From Pseudohongiella spirulinae (lineage in GTDB: Bacteria > Pseudomonadota > Gammaproteobacteria > Pseudomonadales > Pseudohongiellaceae), in contig NZ_CP013189.1 in NCBI RefSeq assembly GCF_001444425.1, positions 1,860,001 through 1,924,000 on the forward strand: a stretch of 64,000 nucleotides of DNA, given 5' to 3'. The notes beneath the pieces were generated by a model. The model worked only from the letters and a program-made list of their open reading frames with translations, ran no database searches and had not been told where the DNA came from. A program made the translations under genes and the position numbers. Of this stretch, positions 6,520 through 40,631 are shown one piece after another; the stretch's first letter is position 1, and every line of letters begins with the position of its first letter.

Positions 6520-6605
6520 CGGTGGTGGCGCGGGGGACGGCGGTGCGCGGGGGACGCCGTCCCCCGCGCACCGCCGTCCCCCGCGCCACCACCGTCAACC
6601 CAGCG
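6509..6605. repeat. 97-bp palindrome covering both stop codons of rnt and cysQ
   Basis: Arms 6509-6556 and 6558-6605 are perfect 48-bp reverse complements around a single centre base (6557). Each arm has two GGGGGACG blocks. The rnt stop (6517-6519) and the cysQ stop (6595-6597) sit at matching positions in the two arms. It would form a very stable hairpin in RNA from either strand and is a likely two-way terminator, although no T-run follows. Confidence 0.92.
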
Positions 6606-7350
6606 CTATGAAATCTGGATTCTCATATCCGCGCTTGCCGTAACCCAGCTCCTCACCAGCAGTATCGGTCAGCCGCCCTCCTGCTGCGCGCAAGATGGCG
6701 TGCCCGGCGGCTGTGTCCCATTCCATGGTGCGACCAAAGCGCGGATACAGGTCCGCTTCCCCGGCAGCAATCAGACACATTTTTAATGAAGAACCGGCAT
6801 TACAGACCGAGGCTACGCGCTTGTCAGCCAGGTAATCCTGCATCACAGCCGTGTCTCCATGAACCCGACTGGCGACCACCGTCAGGCCTTCAGCAGGTGC
6901 TTTGCGCGTAGTAATCTGACGGCGCCCGCTCGCCTCCGTCAGCCAGGCCCCCTGCCCGACCACGCCGGAAAACAAACGATCCAGCGCGGGCGCGTAGATC
7001 ACACCCAACACCGGCACATGGCGCACAATCAGACCAATATTAACGGTGAATTCACCCGTGCGGGATACAAACTCACGGGTACCATCCAGCGGATCAACCA
7101 GCCAGAAGCAGCCTTCCGCCTCATCTTCGCGCCCAGCCGCTGCAGCCTCCTCGGCCACAATGGGAATATCCGGCGTTAACACCCGCAAGGCCTGCTCAAT
7201 GAGCGCCTCGGCCTGGTGATCAGCATCGGTCACGGGAGAATTGTCATCCTTGCCGTAGACAGAAAAGTCTGTGGCATAGATCTGCATAATCAGCCGCCCG
7301 GCATCGCGGGCGATCTGTTCCAGCGCGGGAATCAGGTGAGCGTAGTCCAT
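6595..7350 (-). CDS. cysQ: 3'(2'),5'-bisphosphate nucleotidase CysQ
   Basis: An inositol-monophosphatase-family enzyme that hydrolyses 3'-phosphoadenosine 5'-phosphate (PAP), the by-product of PAPS use, to AMP. The 251 residues show the metal-binding EE at 68-69, DPLDGT at 86-91 and EWDTAAG near 210-216, which are the lithium-sensitive phosphatase motifs. The sulfotransferase at 18408 and the APS kinase at 37336 in the same window would make or use PAPS, so PAP disposal is relevant here. The 3' end lies in the shared palindrome described at 6509. Confidence 0.93.
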   Translation of the reverse strand: MDYAHLIPALEQIARDAGRLIMQIYATDFSVYGKDDNSPVTDADHQAEALIEQALRVLTPDIPIVAEEAAAAGREDEAEGCFWLVDPLDGTREFVSRTGEFTVNIGLIVRHVPVLGVIYAPALDRLFSGVVGQGAWLTEASGRRQITTRKAPAEGLTVVASRVHGDTAVMQDYLADKRVASVCNAGSSLKMCLIAAGEADLYPRFGRTMEWDTAAGHAILRAAGGRLTDTAGEELGYGKRGYENPDFIALG

Positions 7351-14996: not shown

Positions 14997-15081
14997 GCGC
15001 GGGGGACGGAGGCGGTCTACGTCCCCCGCGTTTACGCATGCGTAAAACGCGGGGGACGTAGACCGCCTCCGTCCCCCGCGC
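14997..15081. repeat. Head-to-head pair of REP units, 85-bp near-perfect palindrome
   Basis: Units at 15001-15027 and 15051-15077 are inverted copies joined by CGTTTACGCATGCGTAAAACG, with a single unpaired A. It sits in the 392-bp space between the divergent exported protein and the TonB receptor. The remaining 15082-15312 turns AT-rich near 15180-15240 (TTTTTTATTGTTATTG, TTATAAAAG), a plausible promoter zone for the receptor operon, though no clean -35/-10 pair is visible. Confidence 0.9.
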
Positions 15082-15312
15082 CCCACCTCCGCCCTACCCG
15101 CGCACCACTCTCGCGCAAAACCCCACCCACAGCATCCAGCGTTCTGAACCCATAAGTCCTGACCGCAAAACCCCCAGACAAATTTTTTATTGTTATTGAT
15201 CAGATGCTTATAAAAGAAACTCTCAAAAAAAGCCTTCCAAAAACATGCTTGGCACGAAACCTGCTCAAGCCCCGTAGTCATCAATAATCAGTCGTCTATG
15301 AGGAACCGCTCC

Positions 15313-18300
15313 ATGCCCACACACCACAACGCCAGCAAACATCCTTTCAGACTTAACATGCTGTCTGCTGCCATTTCCGCAGCCATCTTTCCGATCAGCG
15401 GTGCAGTCAGCGCACAGCAGTCCGCCGATATGCCAACGCTGGAAGAAGTCGTTGTAACCGGATCACGTATCACACGTTTCGAAGGTGACTATGTGGCCCC
15501 CGTTCTTTCTCTGGGTACCGAACAGATGCAAGCAGCCGGTACCGTTAACGTGGAAGACTTTGTGAGCGAAGTCGGCGCACTGGTCGGCTCTACTGGCTCG
15601 TTTGAATCAGCTAGCGGCTCTAACGGTACAAGAACAGGTATCAACGCTCTGAACATGCGAAACCTGGGCACCAACCGCACATTGGTGATGGTCAACGGCC
15701 GACGCCACGTCAGCTCTATCGCCACGGGTGAGCCGTTAGTTGATACCAACACCATTCCAACTGCCTTGATTGAACGCATCGACATTCTCACCGGCGCCGC
15801 CTCCGCTGTATACGGAGCCGATGCGGTATCAGGTGCCGTGAACTTTGTCTTGAAAGATGATTTCGAAGGCTTCGACATGCGCACCCAGGCTGGCATTTCC
15901 GGCGAAGGTGATGCCGAGCAGTTTTTTGCCTCGTTCGTCTGGGGCAGCAACTTTGCTGACGGTCGCGGCAACGTGACTGCCAGCTACGAATTTCGCGGTC
16001 AAGAGTCCCTGCAGATCTTTGAACGTGATTATGGCCTGACAGGACGCCAGTACATCGTGAACAACCCGGCTGAGTATCGCCAGGCCGATGACCCCAACGT
16101 GCCAGACCGAATTGTAGCCGGCGATCGTCGCTATATCTTCACTGCTCCTGACGGACGTTACGACATCCTGGGCTTCAATACTGCAACTGGCGCCCCCCTG
16201 GCATTTGGCGATATCAAGTTGAATGCCCGCGGCCAGCCATTCGACGCAGGCAGACCAGTATCAGGTGCCACATCTTTAGGAGGTGACGGCACACCAACAG
16301 CCTTCTTTACCAGCCAGTTTCTGCCTGAGTCAGACGTACACGCCATCAACCTGAACAGCCGCTACGATCTGAGCAACAGTGCCACAGCGTTTACTGAATT
16401 GAAGTACGTCACCACTGACACCGTAAACCCACGCTCGTCATCCTTCACATCCGTGCTGGAACTGAGTATGGAGAACCCCTTTATTCCGGATTCTTTCGAC
16501 ACGGCCCTGGCCGGCATCCAGGATCCCGTGGTTAATCTGGCACGTGATGACCTGGAGCTTCGTCCGTTCAATGATATTACACGTGACACTTTCCGCGTGG
16601 TGGCCGGTGTACGTGGCGATATGACCGACTGGCTGAACTACGAGGTGTCACTGAACTACGGTCAGACTGACGTAACCTCAAGGCTGACCAACATCCGCCG
16701 AGAAGACCGCTACTTTGCTGCACTGGATGCTGTAACAGACCCCGCAACCGGCCAACCCACCTGTCGTTCCAACCTCGACCCTTCTGCTGTGCCGGCCGTG
16801 GACAATATCGTATCTTCATACAACACAGCTGTCTGGGGAGACCCAGCCAATAGCAGCTTCACTCCGGGACCGAACAGCGGTTGTGCACCGTTTAACCCCT
16901 TCTTTGACGGGACATCCGGCTACTTCACACCTGGTGCACTTGACCCTTCAAACCCCAATGCGGCTGCCATCGCCTTTATGACCGGCGGCGGCGTCCCCCT
17001 GGTGGATAACGGCGAAATCACACAAAAAGTGGCCAACGCGTTTATCGCAGGCAGCAGCTCCGGCTTCGGACTGGAATTGCCAGCCGGCCCCATCGACTTT
17101 GTGCTCGGCGGCGAATACCGTGAGGAAGAAGTCAGCAACAATGTCGACCCGATTCGCAGCAACCCCAATGGTCTCACACCGCTGAACTTTGAACGCAGCA
17201 GCGCGTCCTCATTCGACGTCGCGGAAGTGTTCACTGAACTGTCCGCTCCTGTATTCGAAGACCTGGGGCCGTTTATGCAGGCGCTGCGTTTGGACGGTGC
17301 CTATCGTTTCTCCGACTACTCAACCATTGGTCAGACCAGCGCCTTCAGTATCGGTGCCAACTGGACCCTCAACGACAGCGTAATCCTGCGCGGCTCTTTT
17401 GGACGTGCCGTACGATCACCCAACCTGAACGAGCTGTTCTCACCAGATAACGAAGGTTCATTCCGACCGGACGACCCCTGTGAACAGGCTAACCTGGGTA
17501 GCCAGTCAGCCAACACTATCGCCAACTGTGCGGCTGATCTGTCAAGGCTCGGTCTGGATCCGAACACCTTCGTATCGGCCTCGCCTGTCGGCCGCCCCGG
17601 CGTGATCGGCGGCAACCCGTCACTGCAGGAAGAAACCAGCGACACCAACACCTTTGGCTTTGTCCTGACCCCCACATTCATGCCCGGCCTGGTCGCCACA
17701 GTGGATGTCTGGGAGATCGAAATGGATCAGGGCATCCTGTATCCGAATTCAACAGAAATCGTGGAACGTTGTTACGACGCACCCAGCATGGATAACGCGT
17801 TCTGTTCCTTGTTCACTCGCGCCACGGACGGCATTGTTGGGGTCATCATCGACGTCGAGCAGCGACCGGTTAACGTCAGCCAACTGAACACCTCCGGCGT
17901 AGACTTCAGCGTGAGTTATCAGACGGACCTGGGTTTTGATCGCGGCACTTTGATGCTGGGATTCAACGGCAGCTACCTGAATGATCTGCTGGTGCAGCCC
18001 ACTGTAGCGCCACGTCAGATAGATCAGGCAGGCATGGTCACCACCTTGTTGGGACAACAGGCACCTGAGCTGGTTGCCAACTTCAGCGCCAACTGGCAGC
18101 GTGGCCCTCTGTCCGTCAACTATCGCCTGCATCATCAGAGCGAGCTGGACATCTACACCGAAGAACAGTTGGAAAGACAGCCCGATATTTCAGATTACCT
18201 GAACACAAAAAATCTGTTTGTACACGACATTCAGGCTGAATACGCATTCAACGAAGGCTTGAAAGCCTACCTGGGTGCCAACAACGTGGGTGACCGTAAA

Positions 18301-18411
18301 CCTGACGCGACCTACCTGAACACACCGGTCAGCGCACGGGGTCGGTTCGTGTATATGGGACTGTCAGCGAACTTCGCGAACATCAGAGACATCGCCAATC
18401 CGTTCCGATGA
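15313..18411 (+). CDS. TonB-dependent outer-membrane receptor, first gene of the TTQ operon
   Basis: A receptor of about 1030 residues that would import a large or scarce ligand across the outer membrane using TonB. It has a signal peptide ending in AVSAQQ, a TonB box (LEEVVVTGSRI, near 43-53), a plug domain (NMRNLGTNRTLVMVNGRRH) and a long beta-barrel ending in phenylalanine-arginine (ANPFR). The ATG at 15313 is preceded by GAGGA; another ATG is at 15298. The stop overlaps the next start (ATGA), tying it to the sulfotransferase and mau-like genes. The ligand is unknown; linkage suggests an amine-bearing compound. Confidence 0.92.
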   Translation: MPTHHNASKHPFRLNMLSAAISAAIFPISGAVSAQQSADMPTLEEVVVTGSRITRFEGDYVAPVLSLGTEQMQAAGTVNVEDFVSEVGALVGSTGSFESASGSNGTRTGINALNMRNLGTNRTLVMVNGRRHVSSIATGEPLVDTNTIPTALIERIDILTGAASAVYGADAVSGAVNFVLKDDFEGFDMRTQAGISGEGDAEQFFASFVWGSNFADGRGNVTASYEFRGQESLQIFERDYGLTGRQYIVNNPAEYRQADDPNVPDRIVAGDRRYIFTAPDGRYDILGFNTATGAPLAFGDIKLNARGQPFDAGRPVSGATSLGGDGTPTAFFTSQFLPESDVHAINLNSRYDLSNSATAFTELKYVTTDTVNPRSSSFTSVLELSMENPFIPDSFDTALAGIQDPVVNLARDDLELRPFNDITRDTFRVVAGVRGDMTDWLNYEVSLNYGQTDVTSRLTNIRREDRYFAALDAVTDPATGQPTCRSNLDPSAVPAVDNIVSSYNTAVWGDPANSSFTPGPNSGCAPFNPFFDGTSGYFTPGALDPSNPNAAAIAFMTGGGVPLVDNGEITQKVANAFIAGSSSGFGLELPAGPIDFVLGGEYREEEVSNNVDPIRSNPNGLTPLNFERSSASSFDVAEVFTELSAPVFEDLGPFMQALRLDGAYRFSDYSTIGQTSAFSIGANWTLNDSVILRGSFGRAVRSPNLNELFSPDNEGSFRPDDPCEQANLGSQSANTIANCAADLSRLGLDPNTFVSASPVGRPGVIGGNPSLQEETSDTNTFGFVLTPTFMPGLVATVDVWEIEMDQGILYPNSTEIVERCYDAPSMDNAFCSLFTRATDGIVGVIIDVEQRPVNVSQLNTSGVDFSVSYQTDLGFDRGTLMLGFNGSYLNDLLVQPTVAPRQIDQAGMVTTLLGQQAPELVANFSANWQRGPLSVNYRLHHQSELDIYTEEQLERQPDISDYLNTKNLFVHDIQAEYAFNEGLKAYLGANNVGDRKPDATYLNTPVSARGRFVYMGLSANFANIRDIANPFR

Positions 18412-19949
18412 AGGTCGCCATGAAGCAGTACCCGAGGCAATTCAGTCAGCAACAACTCAGAGGGGCGGCCACGACGGCCGCCCGTCTGCGTGACTGGCCC
18501 GAACTGGCGCGCATCGCAGACAACTGGGCCGCGATTGATCCGTCGTGTGTCGAAGCATGGCAGCACTTGTCACGCGCCTGGTTTGAACAGTCCTGCTTTG
18601 CTGAAGCAATCACTGCCTTTAATCAGGTTCTGCAACTGGAGCCGGACAATCACTCTCACCACATCAGCACCGCCCGACTGGCCATGGCCGCCCAGGACTA
18701 CGCGCTCGCCAGACATCACCTGTCGATTGCCGAATCCGCCCAACCGCAGTCCGGCGAAGTCTGCTACGCGCTAAGCCGGCTTCACTACCTGACTGGTGAA
18801 CTGGAACTGTCCGAACATTACTGCCTGCAAACCATCAAAACCAGACCGGATTTCCCGCCTGCCTACGTCAATCTTGGCATGTTGCGCGAAGGCAATCTGG
18901 AGGATGATCACGTGCAGACCATCATCCGACTGTTTAACGACACTCGCGTCCACCCTGAATACCGTACCATGCTGGGTTTCACCCTGGGTGATGCACTCGA
19001 CAGACGCGAACAGACCCAGGCGGCCTTTGATGCCTGGCAACAGGCCAACGAAGTCAATCGGGCCATTTCCGAGCAGGAAGGGTTCAAATATCAACCGGAG
19101 CAACAGGAAACCGAACTGCAATTGCTGAAAGAGATTTTCGCCACGCCCATCACATCGGACTGGCTGGCAGAACGCAACCCAGACCGGGCGCTGCCAATCT
19201 TCGTGCTGGGCATGCCACGTTCAGGCAGCACCCTGGTTGAATCCGTACTGGCCTCACACAGCGATGTCAGCGGTGGCGGGGAACTGCCTGGATTGCAGAT
19301 CATCTATGAAGAAATCATGCAAACGGCCCGGCAACAGGGAACGGCGGTCGCCAGACACCTGATCAGTACCCGTGCCGGCGCCTGGCGTGAACAATACCTG
19401 CACGCTCTGCCTGATGGCCAGTCCGCACGCTGGGTGGTCGATAAACAGCCACTGAATTTCCGCCTGATAGGCCTTATCAGAATCCTGTTTCCGGAATCTC
19501 CGGTGATTTATACCCAGCGTGACGCTGTCGAAACGGGATTCTCCATCTGGCGGCACAAATTCGCTAAAAACTGGCCCTGTGCGCATCGCCTGCCCGACAT
19601 CGGACACTTTCTGGCGTTGCACGCCGCCACCATGGACATGTGGCAGCAGCAATCAGAACAGTTGATTCATATCGTGAAACACGAAGACATGGTTCAACAA
19701 CCTGAAACTGTTATCAAAAATCTCCTGAAGCACTGCTCGCTGCAAGAACAGAGCGATTGCTTTTCACCACACAAATCTAAACGTGCAGTGGCCACTTTCA
19801 GCGCCGTTCAGGTAAAAAAACCGATATCAGCGAAATATCTTGACCGATCATCCCGTTACGCGAACAATCTGGTTGAGCTTAACCAGGCTTTGCGTGACGT
19901 TCCAACTCAACACAGTCATTTCAACAAGCAAAAATGGGGTATCAAATGA
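18408..19949 (+). CDS. TPR-containing sulfotransferase
   Basis: A 513-residue two-part protein. Residues 1-230 carry tetratricopeptide-like helix pairs (AEAITAFNQVLQLEPDN), and residues 262-500 a PAPS-dependent sulfotransferase domain with the 5'-phosphosulfate loop GMPRSGSTLVES at 268 and a DKQPLNFR region. There is no signal peptide, so it acts in the cytoplasm. It overlaps both neighbours by 4 nt, TonB receptor before and mauB-like gene after. This places sulfate transfer in the same transcript as amine oxidation, an unusual pairing. The acceptor may be a tyrosine or a small molecule. Confidence 0.88.
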   Translation: MKVAMKQYPRQFSQQQLRGAATTAARLRDWPELARIADNWAAIDPSCVEAWQHLSRAWFEQSCFAEAITAFNQVLQLEPDNHSHHISTARLAMAAQDYALARHHLSIAESAQPQSGEVCYALSRLHYLTGELELSEHYCLQTIKTRPDFPPAYVNLGMLREGNLEDDHVQTIIRLFNDTRVHPEYRTMLGFTLGDALDRREQTQAAFDAWQQANEVNRAISEQEGFKYQPEQQETELQLLKEIFATPITSDWLAERNPDRALPIFVLGMPRSGSTLVESVLASHSDVSGGGELPGLQIIYEEIMQTARQQGTAVARHLISTRAGAWREQYLHALPDGQSARWVVDKQPLNFRLIGLIRILFPESPVIYTQRDAVETGFSIWRHKFAKNWPCAHRLPDIGHFLALHAATMDMWQQQSEQLIHIVKHEDMVQQPETVIKNLLKHCSLQEQSDCFSPHKSKRAVATFSAVQVKKPISAKYLDRSSRYANNLVELNQALRDVPTQHSHFNKQKWGIK

Positions 19950-21091
19950 AGAAAAAAATACTTGCTGTGATGGCGTCACTGGCTCTCAGTGGGGCCGCGA
20001 ACGCGCAGTGGGACAGCGTCGTTGGTGACGTCGGCATTCTGGAGGAAATTGACCATCACTGGGTTACCGCCAACCGCGGCAACACCATTTACATGGTCAA
20101 TACCGAAACCGGAAAAGTGGGCGCTTCACTGGCGGTATCCAATTTTACCCCGGCAATCGCCCCGCATATGGAAGAAGGACGCATCTACACCTACGGCAGC
20201 TACTATAGCCGTGGCCTGTATGGTGATCGCACAGACCTGTTTATGGTCTACGATGCGCAAACTGCCAGCCCAATTGCCGAACTGGAATTACCACAGATGC
20301 CCGCCGGCATCGGTCACCCCGGCATGATGGGGTTGATCAACCAGAAGTATGTGGGACTGTGGAACATTTCCCCGGCTACCTCAGTGAGCATCGTTGATGT
20401 GGAAAACATGCGCTTTGTCGGTGAGGTGTCAATGCCGAGCTGCTCAGGCATCTATCCGGAGGGCCAGGGCTGGATCTCCATCTGCGGTGACGGCACAGCG
20501 CTCTATATTGAACTGAACAACACCGGACAGGTGGCGCGCCGCATTCAGAGCCGCGCTTTCTTTGATGTCTTCGACGACTTCGTCTGGGATTACTCGGTGC
20601 CTGCCGCCGATGGCTGGATGTTCATGTCCGTTGACGGTTTTTTGCGCAAAGTGACTCTGAATGGCGACACGTTAAACGTATCAGAACCTTTTGACATCAA
20701 CCCGGATACTAACGGCATGGTCGATGTTAACGGTGTCGCCTTTCCTAATGACGATCACTGGCGCATTGTCGGCAGTCAGCCCTTCGCCTGGCACGACAGC
20801 GAAGCGTTGCTGGCCACTGTGATGCGCGATGGCGGTGGTCGCGAGTATTTCGATAAATACGGCACCGAAATCTGGGTCTACAACATGCGCACCGGCAACC
20901 GCGGCGTTCGCATCAAGCTGGATGATGGCGTCACCGCACGCGGTGTCCTGCTGACTCCCGGCCCTGACCCCATGCTGGTCATCAACACCAGCGAAGGAAT
21001 GGAGATTCGCGAGCCCCGCACCGGCGTGCTGAAGCACACCCTGCCTAACGCCAGCGGCACCATCCAGGCACTGTATGAGGGGATGCGCTAA
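19946..21091 (+). CDS. mauB: TTQ amine dehydrogenase, large (beta-propeller) subunit
   Basis: A 381-residue exported protein (signal MKKKILAVMASLALSGAANA) with the repeated blade pattern of the methylamine/aromatic amine dehydrogenase heavy chain, for example NTIYMVNTETGKVGASLAVS, PHMEEGRIYTYGSYYSRGLY and GTEIWVYNMRTGNRGVRI. The heavy chain shields the TTQ light chain and shapes the amine channel in the periplasm. The ATG at 19946 overlaps the sulfotransferase stop (ATGA); TGGGG lies just upstream. The following mauE-, mauD- and mauA-like genes confirm the call. Whether the substrate is methylamine cannot be told. Confidence 0.88.
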   Translation: MKKKILAVMASLALSGAANAQWDSVVGDVGILEEIDHHWVTANRGNTIYMVNTETGKVGASLAVSNFTPAIAPHMEEGRIYTYGSYYSRGLYGDRTDLFMVYDAQTASPIAELELPQMPAGIGHPGMMGLINQKYVGLWNISPATSVSIVDVENMRFVGEVSMPSCSGIYPEGQGWISICGDGTALYIELNNTGQVARRIQSRAFFDVFDDFVWDYSVPAADGWMFMSVDGFLRKVTLNGDTLNVSEPFDINPDTNGMVDVNGVAFPNDDHWRIVGSQPFAWHDSEALLATVMRDGGGREYFDKYGTEIWVYNMRTGNRGVRIKLDDGVTARGVLLTPGPDPMLVINTSEGMEIREPRTGVLKHTLPNASGTIQALYEGMR

Positions 21092-21615
21092 TGATTGATC
21101 CCCTGATCACCATTGTGATTGCCACCTCGCTGGCCATCCTGTTTCTGCTGGCAGCCCGGCACAAGCTCAGCGCTCCGCTGCGCTTTAAAGCCCAACTGTC
21201 TGCCTATCAACTGGTACCCGACAATCTGCTGTCGCCGGTGACACGGGTACTACCCTGGATCGAAATCGTGATTGCCCTGAGCATGCTGTTTGCCGTGTCA
21301 CGACCCTTTGGCGGCATCGCCGCGGCGCTGCTGTTAAGCGCCTATGCGGTGGCCATGGCCATCAATCTGCGTCGTGGACGATCGGCTATCGACTGTGGCT
21401 GCGGTGATACACCGCAACCGCTGTCCTCCTGGCTGGTGCTGCGCAACCTGATACTGGCATTTGGCGCTTTGCTAATGCTGGTTCCGGTTGCCACACGCTC
21501 ATTGAACATGCTCGACATGTTATTTGCTCTGCTGTTTGTTGTGCTGTGTTCGCTCAGCTACACGATGATGGAGCACCTTTCCCGCAATCACAACTTGTTA
21601 ACCCATAAGGAGTAA
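21091..21615 (+). CDS. mauE: MauE-like membrane protein
   Basis: A 174-residue integral membrane protein with four to five hydrophobic segments and the cysteine motif DCGCGD (Cys102, Cys104) between helices. MauE is needed for stable light-chain production and is thought to help form its disulfides, relaying electrons to or from MauD. The start shares a base with the mauB stop (TAATG), and mauD follows after 5 nt. The Cys motif and gene order make this a confident assignment within the DoxX/MauE group. Confidence 0.88.
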   Translation: MIDPLITIVIATSLAILFLLAARHKLSAPLRFKAQLSAYQLVPDNLLSPVTRVLPWIEIVIALSMLFAVSRPFGGIAAALLLSAYAVAMAINLRRGRSAIDCGCGDTPQPLSSWLVLRNLILAFGALLMLVPVATRSLNMLDMLFALLFVVLCSLSYTMMEHLSRNHNLLTHKE

Positions 21616-21620
21616 GAGCC

Positions 21621-22241
21621 ATGAGTAACGCATTGGCTGCAGTATTAGTTTTATTGACCCTGGTTGTTCTGGTTCTGGTATTCGCTGTGATTGCGCTGGC
21701 CCGACAGATCGGCATTCTGCATACCCGCCTGGCTCCGGCCGGCGCCCTGATGACCACATCCGGCCCCAAGCTGGGTGAAAAAATCTCCAACATGTCCATT
21801 CCGGATATTCACGGCAAGCCCGTTGAGATTGGTGCGACTGGTGGCAACGCACTGGCTGGCAAAGCCCAGCTGCTGTTGTTTGTTTCACCCAGCTGCCCCA
21901 TCTGTAAAGAGCTGGTGCCAACCGCCAAGAGCATGGCCCGCAGTGAGAACGTCTCACTGATTTTTGGCAGCGACGGTGGCCAGGCCGATCAGCATCTTGC
22001 CTACATCGACAAGATGGATCTGAAAAAATACCCCTATATCGTCTCTCTGGAACTGGGCATGCGCTTTGAAGTCGCCAAGTTGCCCTATGCCGTACTGATC
22101 GACGATCAGGGCGTGCTGCGCTCCAAAGGGCTGGTCAACAGCCGCGAACATCTGGAGTCACTGGTGCACGCCATGCAGAGCGGGTACGAGTCAATTCAGG
22201 ATTACATGGTTAAAAACGGTCATCTGGAGGAGCAGGCGTAA
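21621..22241 (+). CDS. mauD: MauD-like membrane-anchored thioredoxin
   Basis: A 206-residue protein with one N-terminal membrane helix (AVLVLLTLVVLVLVFAVIAL) and a periplasmic thioredoxin-fold domain with the redox motif Cys92-Pro-Ile-Cys95 (FVSPSCPICKEL). The cis-proline region KLPYAVLIDDQG is present. MauD is thought to make or reshuffle the many disulfides of the TTQ light chain. It overlaps the mauA start by one base (TAATG). GGAG precedes the ATG. Confidence 0.9.
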   Translation: MSNALAAVLVLLTLVVLVLVFAVIALARQIGILHTRLAPAGALMTTSGPKLGEKISNMSIPDIHGKPVEIGATGGNALAGKAQLLLFVSPSCPICKELVPTAKSMARSENVSLIFGSDGGQADQHLAYIDKMDLKKYPYIVSLELGMRFEVAKLPYAVLIDDQGVLRSKGLVNSREHLESLVHAMQSGYESIQDYMVKNGHLEEQA

Positions 22242-22846
22242 TGAGCAACCGTCAGGAATTAATTTCACAACTGTTCAAGGATCTGGATTCGGTCACCACT
22301 GGTGCCATCCGCTTCCTCGCGGCGCGGACTTCGCGGCGCTCCTTCCTGGGCCGTTTTGGCGTGTTCATGGCCGGCATGGGTGCTATTCCCCTGCTGCCCA
22401 TGGCGCGCGCGTCGGCCCAGACATCGTCGCCCACCCCCTTCCCGCCGCCCACAGATCTGCCAGAGGTCAATGGCGTCGCGGATATCGAAGAGATGGGTGA
22501 CATCAATTCATGTGAGTACTGGCGCTATTGTGCGATGAGCGGCTCGCTGTGTTCCTGCTGTGGTGGCACCATGACCACCTGTCCGCCGGGATCGGAAACC
22601 GCCACGGTGGCCTGGGTTGGCTCCTGCTTTAACCCTACCGACGGCAGAAACTACCTGATCTCCTACAACGACTGCTGTGGCAAAGGCAGTTGTGGTTGCG
22701 GATGTTCGCGTTCAGAGGGCGACCGGCCGGTGTACTTCCCGTCCAAGTCCAATGCCATTCTGTGGTGTTTCGGTGCCAACAGCCACGCGTATCACTGCAC
22801 ACTGGCTCTGGTGATTGGTCATGGCGATAATAACGTTCTTCGCTGA
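22241..22846 (+). CDS. mauA: TTQ amine dehydrogenase small subunit (quinone-bearing chain)
   Basis: A 201-residue light chain. A twin-arginine signal (SRRSFLG, 31-37) suggests folded export. The mature part is cysteine-rich (14 Cys) and closely follows methylamine dehydrogenase: CEYWRYCAMSGSLCSCCGG, FNPTDGRNYLISYNDCC and LWCFGANSHAYHC. The two tryptophans that should form TTQ are Trp125 (VAWVGSC) and Trp175 (ILWCFG), 50 residues apart. Asp144 matches the catalytic Asp76 of Paracoccus. The position of Asp32, however, is Ser100 (CAMSGS instead of CAIDGF), which is unusual. It overlaps the MauG-like gene by 26 nt. Confidence 0.92.
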   Translation: MSNRQELISQLFKDLDSVTTGAIRFLAARTSRRSFLGRFGVFMAGMGAIPLLPMARASAQTSSPTPFPPPTDLPEVNGVADIEEMGDINSCEYWRYCAMSGSLCSCCGGTMTTCPPGSETATVAWVGSCFNPTDGRNYLISYNDCCGKGSCGCGCSRSEGDRPVYFPSKSNAILWCFGANSHAYHCTLALVIGHGDNNVLR

Positions 22847-24494
22847 TCTGCGAACCGGCCTGGCCGGTCTGACACTCGCTTTCGCTGCGGCGACGGCGAG
22901 TGCCTCACCGGAGCCTTCCTCGCCCCAGTACAACTATTTGCTGCACTGCGGCGGTTGTCACATTGAGGATGGCTCCGGGATGACCGGTGTCGTGCCCGAT
23001 CTGAATGAGCACATGGGATTCTTTGCCAGTTTCCCGGAAGGACGTGCCTATCTGATCAGGGTGCCAGGTTCCGCACACTCACCACTGCGCGATGAGCAGT
23101 TGGCTGAGGTGTTAAACTGGATGCTGGAAACATTTGCTGCTGGTGATTCGCCACAGCCCTATACGGCCGAGGAAATCACGGCCAACCGGCGTATTCCGAT
23201 GTACGATGCGCCCGGCACGCGCAAGGAGCTGCTGCAGCTGCTTGACGATGCCCAGGCATCGGTATCCGCTGAGCCTGCCGGGGGACTGTCCCCCGAAGCA
23301 GGCCAGTTGCCTGCGATTGACACACCGTCACCGGTTCCGACCGCGGCGGTGTCAGCGTCTTCTGCCAGCCCTGCCGCGCCCCTTAGCGCGGCGCAGCTGG
23401 AAGCCTTTGGCATGGCCCTGTTTTTTGATACCTCTTTGTCACGTCACAATAATCAGTCCTGTGCCAGTTGCCATGATCCGGCACGGGCTTTTTCTGATGC
23501 CAGGCCCGCCGCCATGATGGCCGGCGCCTCGATTGGCTCAGACAATCTGAGCATCGGTCAACGCAATGCACCGGCTCTGACCTATATTGGTTTCACACCA
23601 GATTTATCGCTTAACGATTCACACAGTATTGTTTCCGGCAGTCTGTTGACCAGAGCTGTTGAGCCAGCACCAGCCGATTCGGTGCGTGGCGGATTTTTCT
23701 GGGATGGCCGCGAGCCGACCCTGGAAGCGCAGGTATTGACGCCGTTTATCAATCAGAAAGAAATGGCGCTGACAGACCTGCAGGAGCTGGTCGCACGCGT
23801 CGGCAACAGTGCCCACTACCAGAATTATCTGCGTGATGCGCGCGCCCCTGAACAGGTGCTGACGCGCGTCGCCAATGCATTAGCCGCCTATCTGCGAAGC
23901 GATGCCCTGAATTCATTTGACTCGCGCTACGATCGTTATCTGCGCGGCGAGTACACCCCTACCCGTGAAGAGATGATCGGCATGGGACTGTTTTTTGCGC
24001 CAGGCTTTACAAGCTGTGCCACCTGTCACCAGTCAGAAGCAAGTGGTTATGCCGAACGTGAGTTATTCACCAACCACCGCTATGAGAATATTGGTTCACC
24101 ACTTAATACCGTGTTGCTGAGCCGCAATGGCCTGGGTGCCGATTATCGGGACACCGGGCTGGCCGCCAATCCGACAGTTGCTAAGGCCTTTGCAGCCGAT
24201 GAGCTGGCCGGTCGTATCAAGGTGCCCAGTCTACGCAATGTCGCCGTCACCGGGCCTTATATGCACAACGGCGTGTTTACTGAGCTATCGACGTTGATGG
24301 CCTTTTATAACCATTTCAATGAAACCGGCCACGGTGGGCGCATCAACCCGGAAACCGGCGAGCCCTGGGCGGCTGCCAATGTGCCTGACAGCATTGTTCG
24401 GCAGAAGCTGGAGAGTGGGTTCCCGCTGAATCCGCGGCAAATCAAGGCGCTGACGGCATTTCTGCATATGCTGACGGATGCGCGTTATGAGTGA
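22821..24494 (+). CDS. Cytochrome c domain fused to MauG-like di-haem enzyme
   Basis: A 557-residue exported protein with three haem c sites. Residues 25-125 form a small cytochrome domain (CGGCH at 43-47); a Pro/Ser/Ala-rich linker follows (about 145-190); the rest is a di-haem cytochrome c peroxidase/MauG domain with CASCH at 214-218 and CATCH at 399-403 and the VPSLRNVAVTGPYMHNGVF block. MauG completes TTQ by oxidising the light-chain precursor, and its place directly after mauA supports that role. The extra cytochrome could act as the electron acceptor or donor. No mauF or separate amicyanin gene is present. The start ATG at 22821 has a weak ribosome site, consistent with coupling. Confidence 0.87.
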   Translation: MAIITFFADLRTGLAGLTLAFAAATASASPEPSSPQYNYLLHCGGCHIEDGSGMTGVVPDLNEHMGFFASFPEGRAYLIRVPGSAHSPLRDEQLAEVLNWMLETFAAGDSPQPYTAEEITANRRIPMYDAPGTRKELLQLLDDAQASVSAEPAGGLSPEAGQLPAIDTPSPVPTAAVSASSASPAAPLSAAQLEAFGMALFFDTSLSRHNNQSCASCHDPARAFSDARPAAMMAGASIGSDNLSIGQRNAPALTYIGFTPDLSLNDSHSIVSGSLLTRAVEPAPADSVRGGFFWDGREPTLEAQVLTPFINQKEMALTDLQELVARVGNSAHYQNYLRDARAPEQVLTRVANALAAYLRSDALNSFDSRYDRYLRGEYTPTREEMIGMGLFFAPGFTSCATCHQSEASGYAERELFTNHRYENIGSPLNTVLLSRNGLGADYRDTGLAANPTVAKAFAADELAGRIKVPSLRNVAVTGPYMHNGVFTELSTLMAFYNHFNETGHGGRINPETGEPWAAANVPDSIVRQKLESGFPLNPRQIKALTAFLHMLTDARYE

Positions 24495-24510: not shown

Positions 24511-24642
24511 TGACGCGGGGGACGGTGGTAGTGACGCGGGGGACGGTGGTAGTGCGCTGGGGACGGAGGCGGTCTACGTCCCCACGCTTGGGGACGTAGA
24601 CCGCCTCCGTCCCCAGCGCACTACCACCGTCCCCCGCGTCAC
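24511..24642. repeat. 54-bp perfect inverted repeat with tandem REP-like flanks
   Basis: Arms 24531-24584 and 24589-24642 are exact reverse complements around a 4-nt loop (CGCT). Each arm has one full REP unit plus a GTGACGCGGGGGACGGTGG block. A 21-nt direct repeat (24511-24531 and 24532-24552) lies on the left side. Placed 16 nt after the MauG-like stop, it is a candidate terminator of the TTQ operon. The rest of 24643-24775 holds only the dyad at 24731. Confidence 0.92.
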
Positions 24643-24747: not shown

Positions 24748-24775
24748 ACAATTTAAGTCCTCAGTGAGAATCAAG

Positions 24776-25012
24776 GTGCAGAAAATTAACGTTCGAGAAA
24801 CACGCGAGAGACTGTCAGCCCTGCTGGACGCAGTAGAAGCCGGTGAGGAAATCATTATTCTTCGCCACGGAAAACCTGTGGCCAGATTGACCACTCCTCA
24901 GTCAGACAATGTCTGTTTTCCGGACCGGACTGCGCTGCGCGCATCTTTACCGGCAGCCACAGTGGATGCCACGACACTAATCAGAACTCTCAGGGACGAA
25001 GAACGCTACTGA
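24776..25012 (+). CDS. Phd/YefM-type antitoxin
   Basis: A 78-residue antitoxin with the typical opening VQKINVRETRERLSALLDAV and the conserved AGEEIIILRHGKPVARL strand, which binds DNA as a dimer; the C-terminal tail (TTLIRTLRDEERY) would wrap the toxin. Two GTG starts are possible, 24764 and 24776; I prefer the second because family members begin there. The stop shares a base with the toxin ATG (TGATG). Confidence 0.87.
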   Translation: MQKINVRETRERLSALLDAVEAGEEIIILRHGKPVARLTTPQSDNVCFPDRTALRASLPAATVDATTLIRTLRDEERY

Positions 25013-25434
25013 TGTTCTATTTTGACACCAGCGCCCTGCTGCCCTACTACAGGCAGGAAGCGGCCAGCGAACGGGTGCAGGCGCTGCTGATGTCTCAGCA
25101 GCAGCCCGTCCTGATCAGCCACCTGACACAGGTCGAAGTTGCCAGTGCACTGTCGCGCTGGATACGCATGGGCGAACTGACCGAATCGCAAGCCAATCGA
25201 ATTGAATCAACGTTCAGTGATGATATCAGGCAAAAACGCTTTGTCAGGACGTCGATAGAGGCGGCCGACTACGAGCGTGCGACTCACTGGATAAGCATGT
25301 ATAACACACGGCTGCGAACATTGGACGCTCTGCACCTGGCTTGCGCGGAGCGAAACCGGGCATGTCTGATAAGCCAGGATAAAGCGCTAGTTAAAGCCGC
25401 ATTGTTTTTGGGGCTTGAGGCAAGAATAGCGTAA
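25012..25434 (+). CDS. PIN-domain (VapC-type) toxin
   Basis: A 140-residue PIN ribonuclease. Acidic active-site residues are visible in YFDTSALL (Asp5), THLTQVEVASAL-like region (Glu near 42) and RTLDALHLACAE (Asp near 104). VapC toxins cleave tRNA or rRNA to halt translation. It is coupled to the upstream Phd-type antitoxin, giving a complete module. The target RNA cannot be told. Confidence 0.9.
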   Translation: MFYFDTSALLPYYRQEAASERVQALLMSQQQPVLISHLTQVEVASALSRWIRMGELTESQANRIESTFSDDIRQKRFVRTSIEAADYERATHWISMYNTRLRTLDALHLACAERNRACLISQDKALVKAALFLGLEARIA

Positions 25435-25443
25435 AGTGGGAAC

Positions 25444-26316
25444 CTACCGCCCCAAAACAGGCGCAGCAGCTTCAGCCATCTGACTATTGTTATGCGCAGC
25501 ACCCGCCACAGTCTGTAACTGCCAGGCAAAAGGAACATTCATACGAGCGGCCAACGACATCGCCTGCTGATAAAATGCCTGACCACGAGCGAACCGATGC
25601 GCACCCTGAGCATTAGCTTCTGGCGTCACCCGCAATGAAGGGTGTGCCGGATCTGTATCCTCCTCCCCCAACAGAACGGTGACATGACGCCCCAGCAACG
25701 GTGTCAGACTCATCGCGTCGATACCACTCGATCGCAGACCGTAGGGAAATTCAACTGACGCATCAGGCATCGTATACCATCCCGCATTGGCGACAATTGC
25801 CAGCTCAACTTTGGCAGCGGGCTTGTACAACAGAAAACGATGCGCATATTGCGCACCTGCTGAGTGCCCATAAAGTCGATAGTTTTCCCGATTTGATCCC
25901 AACTCACTGGCCACATGCTCGAAGATCGGATCCAACGCTGAATAACTCCAAATAGACTCCGGATTCATTGCGCCGCTCGCATCAAAGACATTCCCCAGAT
26001 TGTAGCCAGCTGCGCCCGGAAAATCGGCGTCACTGAACTCCGGTACCAGTAACACAAAATCGTATTCATGCGCATACTCACGCCACTCGGCGTAATAACG
26101 GTCAGCATCGCGGCCGACCCCGTGCATTACAAATACAATCGGCATGTCTGCATGAAAATTATCCGGCAGTTCATACCATACCCGCAGTTCAGGTCCACTC
26201 CAGTCTGAAAACTCAAAATGCGGGACATCGTCTGCCGACAAATCTGCGCGAGCTGAAAAACACGCGCACAACAGACTGAGAATCAGCAATCTTCGAATTA
26301 TCAAAACACACATCAC
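25444..26316 (-). CDS. Exported alpha/beta hydrolase (PHB depolymerase-like)
   Basis: A 290-residue secreted hydrolase: signal peptide (LLILSLLCACFSARA), oxyanion-hole segment FVMHGVGRDADRYY, nucleophile Ser152 in GHSAG and a likely catalytic His in AGAAHN near 273. The layout resembles poly(3-hydroxybutyrate) depolymerase and feruloyl-esterase-type enzymes. Its start overlaps the ggt stop by 4 nt, so both are made from one message. The substrate is unknown; with a peptidase-like neighbour an ester- or amide-bond substrate in the periplasm is plausible. Confidence 0.78.
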   Translation of the reverse strand: MMCVLIIRRLLILSLLCACFSARADLSADDVPHFEFSDWSGPELRVWYELPDNFHADMPIVFVMHGVGRDADRYYAEWREYAHEYDFVLLVPEFSDADFPGAAGYNLGNVFDASGAMNPESIWSYSALDPIFEHVASELGSNRENYRLYGHSAGAQYAHRFLLYKPAAKVELAIVANAGWYTMPDASVEFPYGLRSSGIDAMSLTPLLGRHVTVLLGEEDTDPAHPSLRVTPEANAQGAHRFARGQAFYQQAMSLAARMNVPFAWQLQTVAGAAHNNSQMAEAAAPVLGR

Positions 26317-27950: not shown

Positions 27951-27964
27951 ACGATTACTCCTCT

Positions 27965-27995
27965 TTAACAACAAAACGGCGAACCAGGTTCGCCG
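27965..27995 (-). terminator. Stem-loop with T-rich tail after the TonB receptor
   Basis: On the minus strand CGGCGAA-cctgg-TTCGCCG is followed by TTTTGTTGTT. It lies 21 nt past the receptor stop and just before the ggt ribosome site, so it probably separates or dampens transcription between them. Confidence 0.7.
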
Positions 27996-28016
27996 CTTGT
28001 CTTCATTGCTGTGACA

Positions 28017-31898: not shown

Positions 31899-31940
31899 AA
31901 GCGCCTCCTGTTTTTCATAAACATAATCTAATGTTATAGG

Positions 31941-31951
31941 TATTGCAAATA
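31941..31951. promoter_or_regulatory. Possible LysR binding site in the divergent promoter
   Basis: TATTGCAAATA is a near-symmetrical AT-rich site of the T-N11-A kind, placed 43 nt before the LysR start and 82 nt before the aminotransferase start. The surrounding 31899-32033 is AT-rich and must hold both promoters. Weak evidence from position and symmetry. Confidence 0.35.
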
Positions 31952-32033
31952 ATACAATTTGACTTATGTACCAAAAAGCCCAACCATAGGCCAAAACATA
32001 AATAGCAACATTTCATTCTCTGAACAGGCCAAT

Positions 32034-37296: not shown

Positions 37297-37357
37297 TGCG
37301 CTGGGGACGGAGGCGCACTACCACCGTCCCCCGCGTCACCACCCGTCCCCAGCATCC
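37291..37357. repeat. REP-like repeat joining convergent genes
   Basis: TGGTAGTGCGC (37291-37301) and GCGCACTACCA (37313-37323) form an 11-bp stem around TGGGGACGGAG, followed by further ACCGTCCCCCGCG and CCCGTCCCC blocks. It holds the stop of the M14 gene (37294-37296) on one strand and the end of cysC (37336 onward) on the other. Confidence 0.8.
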
Positions 37358-37932
37358 CCCAACAACAACTCCACCACCCGTGCAGCACTCCGCTCAGGCG
37401 TCTCATGTTCAGTTTTGATCACCAGCGCAGGTGCCTCAGGCGCTTCATAGGGCGAATCAATGCCCGTAAAGTGCCTGATCTCCCCTCTTCGGGCTTTGGC
37501 ATACAGGCCCTTCACGTCACGCCGTTCGGCGACCGCCAACGGGGCATCCACATAAATCTCGAAAAAACGGTCAGCGCCGATGCTCTGGCGTGCGGCTTCG
37601 CGCTCGGCTTTGAAGGGTGAGATGAATGCGGCCAGCACAATCAGGCCCGCATCGGTCATCAGGGCGGCCACCTCTGCAACGCGGCGGATGTTTTCCACCC
37701 GGTCAGCATCGCTAAAACCAAGATCGGCGCACAGGCCGCGTCGCACATTATCGCCGTCCAGCAGATAGGTGTGGCGCCCCATGGCCAGCAGCTGCTGTTC
37801 AACCAGATTGGCGATGGTTGACTTGCCGGCGCCCGACAGACCGGTGAACCACAGCACGGCAGGCGTCTGCTGTTTCATGGCTGCCCGATCGGCCAATGTG
37901 ACCGAAAAAGTCTGCTGGTGGATATTGTTCAT
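37336..37932 (-). CDS. cysC: Adenylylsulfate (APS) kinase
   Basis: Phosphorylates adenosine 5'-phosphosulfate to PAPS, the donor used by sulfotransferases such as the one at 18408. The 198 residues have the P-loop GLSGAGKST near 35, the DGDNVRRGL motif, [13 protein letters not shown] and [16 protein letters not shown], all diagnostic. The ATG at 37932 is used; upstream codons overlap a wrecked AbiE gene. The C-terminus GDAGDGW is encoded by REP sequence. The gene is not linked to cysDN here, which suggests it may serve sulfate modification rather than assimilation. Confidence 0.93.
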
Positions 37933-38009
37933 TATGATATGACCCGTTTTAGCTTTCGAATATTTGTCCAGACTACAGCTCTTGGCAGGGAAACGCTCAT
38001 AACCTGCAT

Positions 38010-38434
38010 GCATCGATCAGAATTAGCCAGCAATTTGCTGGCCGCCATGTCAACCACTGTCAGAGTGGGCACTCCGCACACATTGTCATCCCCCCCAGAG
38101 GTATCCAAGCCTATCCTCACTTCCCGAATAATCTCAAACTTGATTGGCACATCAAAGACATTAACTATGGTTCTTATGCCATATTGATCAGGGTGAACAG
38201 TCATTGCCATACCTAGCGCTTGTAAAACTGAAAGATAGGCACCACAGGTGACCGATAACTCACCTTTCTCTATTCGATGGACATTCGATGGACAGTGACA
38301 CGCGACATATCAACGGACTCGGCGAGTGCCGTCGCGCTGACGCCGAGCGCCTTGCGTCTGGTACGTATCTGCCTGCCAATCTCTCTGGCGCGGAACTTAA
38401 TATCAGAGGTCACTGCCGGAGATTTCGAGGGCAT
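38010..38434 (-). pseudogene. Wrecked AbiE-type toxin-antitoxin system (HTH + nucleotidyltransferase remnants)
   Basis: From the ATG at 38434 an Xre-type antitoxin starts (RAREIGRQIRTRRKALGVSA, DMSRVTVHR) but hits a stop at 38270-38272 because ATTCGATGGAC is duplicated in tandem (38272-38282, 38283-38293). Removing one 11-bp copy restores HRIEKGELSVTCGAYLSVL, as in intact relatives. The frame then runs straight into MTVHPDQYGIRT, VPIKFEIIREVRI and [15 protein letters not shown], the middle of the AbiEii/AbiGii nucleotidyltransferase toxin, so the antitoxin end and toxin start are also deleted. The toxin's C-terminus is missing too. Non-functional. Confidence 0.82.
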
Positions 38435-39464: not shown

Positions 39465-40631
39465 ATGAACATCACCATCGCCGGCACCGGCTACGTTGGC
39501 CTCTCAAACGCCGTGCTGCTGGCCCAGCACAATCAGGTCATTGCGCTGGATATCGTTAAGGACAAAGTGGACATGATCAATCGGCGCGAGAGCCCGATCG
39601 TGGACACCGAGTTGCAGGACTACCTGGCCAACAAGCCTCTGAATCTGACAGCGACACTGGACAAGCAGCAGGCCTACGCCAATGCCGACTTCGTCATCAT
39701 CGCCACCCCGACCGACTACGACCCGCAGACCAACTACTTCAACACTCGCACTGTGGAAGCGGTGATTCAGGATGTGATGGCCATCAACCCGAAGGCGGTG
39801 ATGGTGATCAAGTCCACGGTGCCGGTGGGTTTTACCAAAGAGGCGCGCGAGCGGTTTAACACACCCAATCTGATGTTCAGCCCGGAGTTTCTGCGCGAAG
39901 GCCGTGCGCTGTATGACAATCTGTATCCCTCGCGCATCATCGTCGGCGAGCAGTCAGCCCGTGCGCAGCAGTTTGCTGAGCTGCTACAGCAAGGCGCGAT
40001 CAAACAGGATGTGCCGGTGCTGTTTACCGATGCGACTGAAGCCGAGGCCATCAAGCTGTTCAGCAATACCTACCTGGCGATGCGAGTGGCCTATTTTAAC
40101 GAGCTGGACAGTTATGCCGCTGTGCATGGCCTGGACACCCGGCAGATCATCAACGGCGTGAGTCTGGATCCGCGCATTGGCAATCACTACAACAACCCCT
40201 CGTTCGGTTATGGTGGTTACTGCCTGCCCAAGGACACCAAACAGCTGCTGGCCAACTACGACGATGTGCCGCAGAACCTGATCCGCGCCATTGTTGATTC
40301 CAACCGTTCGCGCAAGGATTTTATTGCCGATGACATCATCCGCCGGCAGCCCAAAATCGTCGGCGTCTACCGCCTGATCATGAAGGCTGGCTCCGACAAC
40401 TTCCGTGCCTCCAGCGTGCAGGGCGTGATGAAGCGTATCAAGGCCAAGGGCATCGAGGTGGTGGTGTATGAGCCGGAGCTTAAGGAGGAGGATTTCTTCC
40501 GCTCGCGGGTGATCCGTGATCTGGAAGCGTTCAAGCAGATGAGTGATGTGATTATCGCGAATCGGATGGTGGATGCGCTGGAGGATGTGTGGGGGAAGGT
40601 GTATACCCGCGACCTGTTTGGGGGAGATTGA
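39465..40631 (+). CDS. ugd: UDP-glucose 6-dehydrogenase
   Basis: Oxidises UDP-glucose to UDP-glucuronate with two NAD. The 388 residues match the short E. coli-type enzyme: NAD site [44 protein letters not shown] and catalytic Cys253 in [14 protein letters not shown]. The product is the substrate of the epimerase at 45196, so the two would supply UDP-glucuronate and UDP-galacturonate to the polysaccharide genes downstream. GGAC is just before the ATG; no clear ribosome site is stronger. Confidence 0.96.

Follow-up and report, generated by a model that had tools for sequence, protein, structure and literature searches.

A TonB Receptor and a Sulfotransferase Joined to a TTQ Amine Dehydrogenase Operon in Pseudohongiella spirulinae

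Gene Block and Surroundings

In the marine-type bacterium Pseudohongiella spirulinae, a TonB-dependent receptor (TBDR) and a TPR-sulfotransferase (ST) precede the genes of a TTQ amine dehydrogenase, and this pair is a module that joins the mau module, not a standard mau part. The window, that is, the whole stretch of DNA analysed, comprises 64,000 nucleotides of contig NZ_CP013189.1. Open reading frames, together with Pfam and NCBIfam assignments, confirm the tight row described in an earlier sequence-only reading: seven genes on the same strand, spanning 15298 (or 15313) to 24494, with gaps of at most 5 nt and otherwise overlaps (Table 1). For the receptor, the start at 15313, behind GAGGAA, is as good as that at 15298. 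A promoter and terminator scan found no sigma-70-like promoters or terminators beyond chance level inside the block.

Table 1. Genes of the block and neighbouring genes of interest in the window.
Feature	Position	Strand	Spacing	Basis or remark
TonB-dependent receptor (TBDR, P0001), ~1037 aa	15298..18411, alternative start 15313	+		Plug and barrel Pfam matches; orthologues
TPR-sulfotransferase (ST, P0002)	18408..19949	+	overlap with TBDR 4 nt	Pfam, fold, invariant residues
mauB/aauB-like TTQ dehydrogenase heavy chain	19934..21091	+	overlap with ST 16 nt	Pfam, alignments
mauE, membrane redox-associated accessory protein	21091..21615	+	overlap with mauB-like gene 1 nt	PF07291, 5.6e-28
mauD, thioredoxin-like accessory protein	21621..22241	+	gap after mauE 5 nt	TIGR02661
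mauA, TTQ dehydrogenase light chain	22241..22846	+	overlap with mauD 1 nt	PF02975 (Me-amine-dh_L), 2e-46; alignments
Cytochrome c–MauG fusion (P0007)	ATG 22821 or TTG 22815 to 24494	+	overlap with mauA 26 or 32 nt	
Stand-alone APS kinase (PAPS supply)	37336..38013	-		Orthologues adjoin the TBDR–ST pair or follow MauG in other species
Inositol-monophosphatase-family gene, CysQ-like (putative PAP removal)	6595..7350	-		L117, L160 and L037 have orthologues close to the block
UDP-glucose dehydrogenase	39465..40631	+		With APS kinase, marks the site of the TBDR–ST pair in relatives

A gamma-glutamyltransferase gene (26313–27974), whose family also occurs near the block in L160 and, between ST and mauB, in L161, was considered as an amine-releasing step and rejected. 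Identity between the window gene and those of L160 and L161 is only 27–30%, and several such genes occur in most genomes.

TTQ Dehydrogenase and Its Substrate

The light chain (157.5 bits in Pfam, cut-off 25) has a twin-arginine-like leader, and its nearest PDB entry is MADH. In the alignments, its Trp125, Trp175 and Asp144 fall on W57, W108 and D76 of MADH, which we take to be the TTQ tryptophans and the catalytic Asp, and the cross-link between the two tryptophans is predicted. The heavy chain (PF06433, Me-amine-dh_H; 2e-13, 50.5 bits, cut-off 21) is nearer in the PDB to AADH (6e-21) than to MADH (7e-11). Both subunits score below the NCBI equivalog cut-offs for MADH (TIGR02658 and TIGR02659), with 51.7 against 454.45 bits for the heavy chain and 176.7 against 196.85 bits for the light chain. 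MauD, with 192 bits, lies above its cut-off of 188.6.

Heavy-chain Phe71 occupies the position of MADH Phe55, and a Phe stands there in all the aligned Pseudohongiella heavy chains, although neither in P. aeruginosa AauB nor in Novosphingobium. In MADH, a Phe at this position presumably points to small amines. Its conservation thus favours an active site that takes a small amine, and activity on aromatic amines would be disfavoured; the enzyme may be an ordinary amine dehydrogenase. The larger amine-bearing ligand proposed in the sequence-only reading does not fit this residue, unless the ligand is cut first.

The gene order mauBEDA followed by a cytochrome c is shared with the aau clusters, for example that on plasmid RW109 of P. 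aeruginosa (L195; aauB-mauE-mauD-aauA-cyt c-cyt c), which likewise have neither mauF nor amicyanin. The block differs from them in having MauG, fused to the cytochrome, a TBDR–ST pair upstream, and the Phe just discussed. With the mau cluster of Paracoccus (L196; mauFBEDA, amicyanin, mauJ, mauG, napG, napH) it shares homologues of mauB, E, D, A and mauG, but none of mauF, amicyanin, mauJ, napG or napH.

Cytochrome c–MauG Fusion

According to the sequence-only reading, mau clusters normally carry mauF and an amicyanin or cytochrome gene. All ORFs of the block could be assigned, none of them to mauF or amicyanin, but the cytochrome is not missing: it is fused N-terminally to MauG and was overlooked together with its CxxCH motif, the third of the protein. 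P0007 carries these motifs at residues 45–49 (CGGCH), 216–220 (CASCH) and 401–405 (CATCH), which correspond to an N-terminal cytochrome c domain and a two-haem MauG domain (CCP_MauG, 2.9e-39). In G045, G162, G205 and L036, each half is encoded by a gene of its own, and in congeners a cytochrome c gene lies between mauA and mauG.

Besides the two c-haems, the MauG domain keeps Y482, W296, P310 and E316, which align with the Tyr294 ligand, Trp93, Pro107 and Glu113 of MauG. Trp199 of MauG, which serves electron transfer to preMADH, is absent, WNC being replaced by TSC next to a three-residue insertion, and no Trp occupies this position in any aligned MauG of Pseudohongiella or L036. P0007 scores 85.9 bits with the NCBIfam MauG model (TIGR03791), below the cut-off of 443.85, although this model is not discriminating within the family, in which other di-haem proteins outscore real MauG.

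Receptor

The receptor matches both the TonB barrel (PF00593, 1.7e-26) and the Plug (PF07715, 1.1e-14) above cut-off. Its orthologues are 66–75% identical and, among 391 genomes of the order, occur only in Pseudohongiella. An AlphaFold model (six orthologues) reached a pLDDT of 32, too poor for use.

A receptor in such an operon might supply the enzyme system with a nutrient instead of a substrate: the three-haem cytochrome c–MauG would need iron or haem, or the cargo might be another metal. The enzyme would then be an ordinary small-alkylamine dehydrogenase. The conserved Phe of the heavy chain is in line with this proposal, and so are the closest solved receptors, those for colicin I, B12, enterobactin and haem, though the match covers the plug region only. 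However, we think that it is somewhat unlikely. The receptor (1037 aa) is far larger than the matched ones (594–777 aa) and shows no barrel similarity to them, the genes found adjoining the block include none for siderophores, haem or metals, and, to our knowledge, most cytochrome-rich operons do without a dedicated receptor.

Linkage in Other Genomes

Receptor and ST are inseparable in all 13 Pseudohongiella genomes that have them. In seven genomes (that of the window, G111, G184, G393, G394, G397 and L036) mauBEDA follows immediately downstream of the pair, in the same block order, with several different flanks and with mau always downstream of ST on its strand. Moreover, pair and mau genes are both present in 12 Pseudohongiella genomes and both missing in G398 and G399, the sole exception being G392, which is 72% complete. 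The wiring of receptor and ST into the amine operon, as first claimed, is thus borne out by these genomes, but not by the five or six other congeners in which the pair lies elsewhere, unlinked from mau. Co-occurrence of the parts likewise stops at this group: no ST was found near any of about 93 mau clusters outside it, and the link does not extend beyond Pseudohongiella and a single related MAG. Since nearly all other mau clusters lack the pair and it lies elsewhere in those congeners, it is not a standard mau part, and the dehydrogenase therefore does not need it.

The neighbourhood could also be coincidental, the pair having an unrelated job (e.g., in surface polysaccharide, with UDP-glucose dehydrogenase and APS kinase) and a rearrangement having brought it beside mau; the palindromic repeats on either side of the block (15002/15055 and 24559/24593) may have mediated this move. 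Besides these repeats and the unlinked congeners, the discordant gene trees of TBDR and mau speak for such a history, as do the relatives that keep the pair next to APS kinase, UDP-glucose dehydrogenase and an epimerase. Nevertheless, we consider coincidence unlikely, given the identical order amid different flanks in several lineages, the shared presence and absence, and the two overlaps that tie receptor, ST and mauB together in the window. The junctions at which mau genes directly follow ST differ, lying before a 2OG-Fe oxygenase in G111 (ST and oxygenase being neighbours in G205 and G391) and before APS kinase in G393 and G184, which speaks for the link. Furthermore, on three Novosphingobium plasmids (L197, L198, L199) receptors unrelated to P0001 stand on the same strand beside mauBEDA, those of L197 and L198 (~790 aa) being related to it by superfamily only, although no ST accompanies them. 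A recurrent link between receptors and amine dehydrogenases is thus credible. Catechol-pathway genes occur near the pNL2 cluster of Novosphingobium.

Sulfotransferase

The ST combines a Sulfotransfer_3 domain (PF13469, 3.8e-30, 106 bits) with N-terminal TPRs and has no signal peptide. It carries the PAPS motif GMPRSGST at residues 268–275 and an invariant Glu292 within the catalytic-Glu region. Its fold is nearest to TPST1/2 (Z 18.8–19.5, against 14.9 for small-molecule STs). With TPSTs and bacterial TPR-sulfotransferases it shares this fold (Z 19.5), the P-loop motif and the Glu, whereas it differs from TPSTs in its ~19–20% identity, its cytosolic location, its TPRs and its constant place, in this genus, beside a TonB receptor. 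All 20 P0002-like STs of Pseudohongiella adjoin a TBDR, including a second, unrelated pair, so the ST goes with receptors. This pairing is no universal rule, since only four of 24 loci of TPR-sulfotransferases in the order generally lie next to receptors.

Either the ligand or a partner protein had been suggested as the target of sulfation. The partner is favoured, because the fold is nearest to protein-tyrosine sulfotransferases; on this structural comparison, a protein is a more likely substrate of the ST than the amine, and a protein tyrosine would be a candidate target. A scan of the cluster proteins gave no convincing TPST-type site with an acidic tyrosine environment and no conserved Tyr in a strongly acidic context. 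Sulfation of the amine or its oxidation product, which the common operon of ST, receptor and dehydrogenase and the nearby APS kinase might suggest, seems improbable to us: the ST is cytosolic whereas the amine is oxidised in the periplasm, from its TPR domain and fold one would expect it to act on proteins or peptides, and it pairs with receptors away from mau too.

A TonB transporter (MbnT), a sulfotransferase (MbnS) and a MauG-like di-haem enzyme (MbnH) can also occur together in methanobactin operons (PMC3621798), and the best NCBIfam E-value of P0007 is to the MbnH family, but a metallophore system with these three protein kinds is hardly conceivable here: the block has no MbnB gene (the only PF05114 gene of the genome lies more than 1 Mb away, at G000:C1:2935614) and encodes real TTQ dehydrogenase subunits instead, the MauG domain scores 262 bits against MauG and 88 against the di-haem enzyme 6e1c, and the ST best matches PF13469, with TPRs, whereas MbnS was reported as PF00685 (PMC3621798).

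Proposed Mechanism and Perspectives

We tentatively think, at somewhat less than an even chance, that two modules work together in this operon. In the first, which is of the aau/mau kind, MauB and MauA would form a TTQ amine dehydrogenase in the periplasm. Matured by MauE/MauD and MauG, this enzyme would oxidise an amine to aldehyde and ammonia and pass the electrons to the cytochrome c fused to MauG, the probable acceptor. The second would consist of the receptor in the outer membrane and the TPST-like sulfotransferase that belongs to it in the cytosol. The receptor may bring the amine, or an amine-bearing compound that releases it in the periplasm, to the dehydrogenase, while the ST, with PAPS from the nearby APS kinase, would sulfate not the amine but a protein or peptide belonging to the receptor system, either a partner or the receptor itself prior to its export.

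The conserved order with differing flanks, the shared presence and absence, the constant receptor–ST pairing, the TPST-like fold, the flanking APS kinases, the Novosphingobium receptors, and the conserved TTQ and most MauG residues favour this two-module arrangement. Against it stand the unlinked congeners, the roughly 93 clusters without the pair, the narrow range of the link, the Phe that points to small amines, for which no TonB receptor is needed, and the lack of convincing acidic TPST-type tyrosine sites in the scan. A more specific version, a dedicated route from outer membrane to periplasm in which tyrosine sulfation by its own cytosolic TPR-sulfotransferase controls a TonB receptor that delivers an amine-bearing compound to a TTQ dehydrogenase with a MauG-fused acceptor cytochrome, is doubtful. 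Our literature searches found no paper in which sulfotransferase, TonB receptor and amine dehydrogenase come together. If the specific version held, it would provide the first TonB-fed TTQ system and the first sulfated TonB receptor that we know of.

These findings suggest repeated recruitment of TonB receptors as feeders of TTQ amine dehydrogenases. The natural cytochrome c–MauG fusion lets the making of TTQ be studied when the hopping tryptophan of MauG is missing. Moreover, the sulfotransferase, in Pseudohongiella always found with a TonB receptor, offers a genetically tractable case for the role of many bacterial TPR-sulfotransferases.

Gene Row and Surroundings

The genome (G000) is a single contig of 3.35 Mb, in which the window corresponds to G000:C1:1860001-1924000. 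Seven plus-strand genes follow one another there with overlaps or with gaps of at most 5 nt, encoding a TonB receptor (TBDR), a TPR-sulfotransferase (ST), MauB, MauE, MauD, MauA and a MauG homologue. All of them exceed their Pfam cut-offs except MauD, which exceeds its NCBIfam equivalog cut-off instead. The tight same-strand row described by the sequence-only reading is confirmed by these matches and by the ORF coordinates, and the interpretation attached to it is, overall, supported in part.

A 22-bp element, GACGTAGACCGCCTCCGTCCCC, often arranged in inverted pairs, occurs 15 times in the window against 0 copies expected. Its pairs lie on both sides of the block and also beside the UDP-glucose dehydrogenase gene, and no exact copy was found in 20 kb from elsewhere in the genome (L134). 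The element may have mediated rearrangement.

Coordinates of features in the window and, where a locus number is given, in the loci compared
Feature	Position	Strand	Remark
TBDR-ST-mauBEDA-MauG block	15298/15313-24494	+	
Copies of GACGTAGACCGCCTCCGTCCCC	15002-15076, 24559-24614, 3928, 4481, 4729, 7392, 7530, 12950, 39401, 40640, 40890, 47192, 57199		
CysQ-like gene	6595-7350		inositol-phosphatase family; function inferred
Probable toxin-antitoxin pair	24775-25434		short frame with antitoxin-like start directly before the PIN-domain gene
PIN-domain gene	25012-25434		just behind MauG
Gene row adjoining the block	25444-30833	-	comprises the next three features
290-aa protein	25444-26316	-	no Pfam match; overlaps the gamma-glutamyltransferase gene by 4 nt
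Gamma-glutamyltransferase	26313-27974	-	
Second TonB receptor	28017-30833	-	
Genes for a class III aminotransferase, a beta-keto acid cleavage enzyme, an acyl-CoA synthetase and an M14 peptidase, with a LysR regulator in divergent orientation	30957-37296		resembles a catabolic operon for amino acids or amines, close to mau
Stand-alone APS kinase	37336-38013		
2OG-Fe(II) oxygenase (PF13759)	L115:5143-5811, L153:11144-11812, L156:11309-11983		conserved directly behind TBDR-ST, or behind mau if inserted

Dehydrogenase and MauG Fusion

Among solved structures, the light chain best matches those of methylamine dehydrogenase (MADH, 1.8e-50; aromatic amine dehydrogenase, AADH, 2e-38), and the diverged heavy chain is nearer to AADH (6e-21) than to MADH (7e-11). 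By alignment, the light chain retains tryptophans W125 and W175 of the TTQ cofactor, the catalytic-base Asp D144 and the Tyr and Thr of YHCT, with the Asp of CDYWR changed to Glu, and its leader carries a twin-arginine-like motif, SRRSFLGR. Since both subunits fall below the NCBI methylamine-dehydrogenase equivalog cut-offs, we think that the enzyme should not bear that name. The layout, with cytochrome c after mauBEDA and neither mauF nor amicyanin, matches the aau cluster on P. aeruginosa plasmid RW109 (L195) and not the Paracoccus mau cluster (L196). Phe55 restricts MADH to small amines. In a low-identity alignment, heavy-chain Phe71 falls on this position, which is Phe in every aligned Pseudohongiella heavy chain, unlike in AauB and the Novosphingobium heavy chains; where a larger amine ligand had been proposed, this residue would favour a small-amine substrate.

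The last gene of the block encodes a fusion that the sequence-only reading missed: its N-terminal part is a cytochrome c domain (CGGCH motif, residues 45-49), followed by a MauG domain that carries two haem motifs (216-220, 401-405). In G045, G162, G205, L038 and L036, a related MAG, each half has a gene of its own, in the matching order mauA-cytc-mauG, so that the window and five congeners have a true gene fusion. The MauG domain reaches 262 bits against P. denitrificans MauG, compared with at most 146 bits against other di-haem enzymes, and has equivalents of MauG Tyr294, Trp93, Pro107 and Glu113. Trp199, which in MauG carries electrons to the MADH precursor, is not conserved: WNC is replaced by TSC plus a 3-residue insertion, and none of the aligned Pseudohongiella MauG sequences has Trp there. 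The PDB entries matched include MauG chains with K or E replacing Trp199. Clusters outside the group (L041-L113, L119-L133) contain mauBEDA and usually a cytochrome, with no MauG-domain match above 150 bits. Most of these aau-type mauBEDA-cytc clusters are without a MauG-domain gene within the stretch compared.

Receptor-Sulfotransferase Pair and Sulfate Supply

TBDR orthologues (66-75% identity) are present in 13 of the 15 Pseudohongiella genomes, and a search of 391 genomes of the order at E < 1e-150 found none in any other genus. The same 13 genomes have ST orthologues (48-54%), directly downstream of the receptor in every case, and a second, distant ST of the genus always adjoins a TonB receptor of another kind (L134, L147-L152). 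Every one of the 20 ST matches within the genus adjoins a receptor, as against 4 among the 24 best ST loci from elsewhere; ST therefore goes with receptors. One other genus of the order, with at least two mauA genes per genome, has tandem TPR-sulfotransferase genes (L165, L166), the closest outside Pseudohongiella (35-37%).

Of two APS kinase matches in the genome, one lies within a 655-aa frame, probably CysNC, and the other stands alone in the window. Orthologues of this stand-alone gene immediately follow MauG in G184 and, after 7 nt, in G393; the one in G394 is a short distance away, and those in G045, G392 and G396 are close to an unlinked pair. G184, G393 and G394 have an orthologue of the CysQ-like gene in the vicinity of the block. 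The positions of both genes support a putative working PAPS-dependent ST in the neighbourhood.

Linkage of the Pair to the mau Genes

TBDR-ST-mauBEDA-MauG has the same order and strand in seven genomes (the window's, G111, G184, G393, G394, G397 and L036), with a gamma-glutamyltransferase gene inserted between ST and mauB in G393. Flanking genes vary from the window to G111, to the G184/G393/G394/G397 group and to L036, so conserved synteny alone does not account for the block. TBDR, ST and mauA are all present in 12 of the 15 related genomes compared, a weak statistical sample; G398 and G399 have orthologues of none of them, and G392, 72% complete, has the pair with mauA absent.

The mau genes of G111 are placed after ST and before a 2OG-Fe(II) oxygenase gene. 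That oxygenase gene adjoins ST in G205 and G391, whose pair is sister to that of G111 (tree support 1.00). In G393 and G184 the mau genes have ST on one side and the APS kinase gene on the other. At 37-40 kb, the window has orthologues of this APS kinase and of the UDP-glucose dehydrogenase, without the pair. Because the junctions differ (G111 from G205/G391, G393/G184 from G045/G396/G392, and the window), we think that the pair and mau came together or separated several times, mau lying downstream of ST in each case. The mauBEDA and TBDR trees disagree. On three Novosphingobium plasmids, TonB receptors unrelated to that of the block adjoin mauBEDA on the same strand.

The earlier claim that receptor and ST are part of the mau block holds in part. 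The shared order, the varied flanks, the shared presence or absence, the repeated placement of mau downstream of ST and the Novosphingobium receptors argue for it. Against it, the pair lies away from mau in G045, G162, G205, G391, G396 and probably G395, whose contig ends at ST, and beyond Pseudohongiella and L036 none of 93 loci, some of them short (L041-L113, L119-L133, L195-L199), has an ST near mau.

Proposed Function

In the best-supported, still tentative reading, the receptor would carry a ligand into the periplasm, the TTQ dehydrogenase would oxidise the amine, and electrons would pass to cytochrome c, tethered to MauG in this lineage; ST, in the cytoplasm, would modify one of the proteins of the receptor system prior to its export. 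We infer the uptake step from gene linkage and repeated recruitment, and the sulfation step from the fold, location and pairing of ST.

It is rather unlikely that the receptor serves iron or haem supply instead. A merely coincidental neighbourhood of pair and mau genes is also unlikely. Sulfation of the ligand by ST is improbable. In fold comparison, tyrosylprotein sulfotransferases come closest to the catalytic domain (Z 18.8-19.5), followed by small-molecule sulfotransferases (Z 14.9), and ahead of this domain lies an N-terminal TPR superhelix of the peptide-binding kind, a combination that favours a protein or peptide substrate; ST has no signal peptide. Methanobactin operons also combine a TonB transporter, a sulfotransferase and a MauG-like enzyme (PMC3621798); such a system was set aside, as no MbnB gene is nearby and the MauG domain resembles MauG rather than MbnH.

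A literature search found no paper with the combination, the fusion or a receptor-sulfotransferase/TTQ dehydrogenase coupling. Each part of the block belongs to a known kind. What is new, to our knowledge, is how they are combined, the cytochrome c-MauG fusion, and the loose coupling, seen repeatedly, between the pair and a TTQ dehydrogenase.
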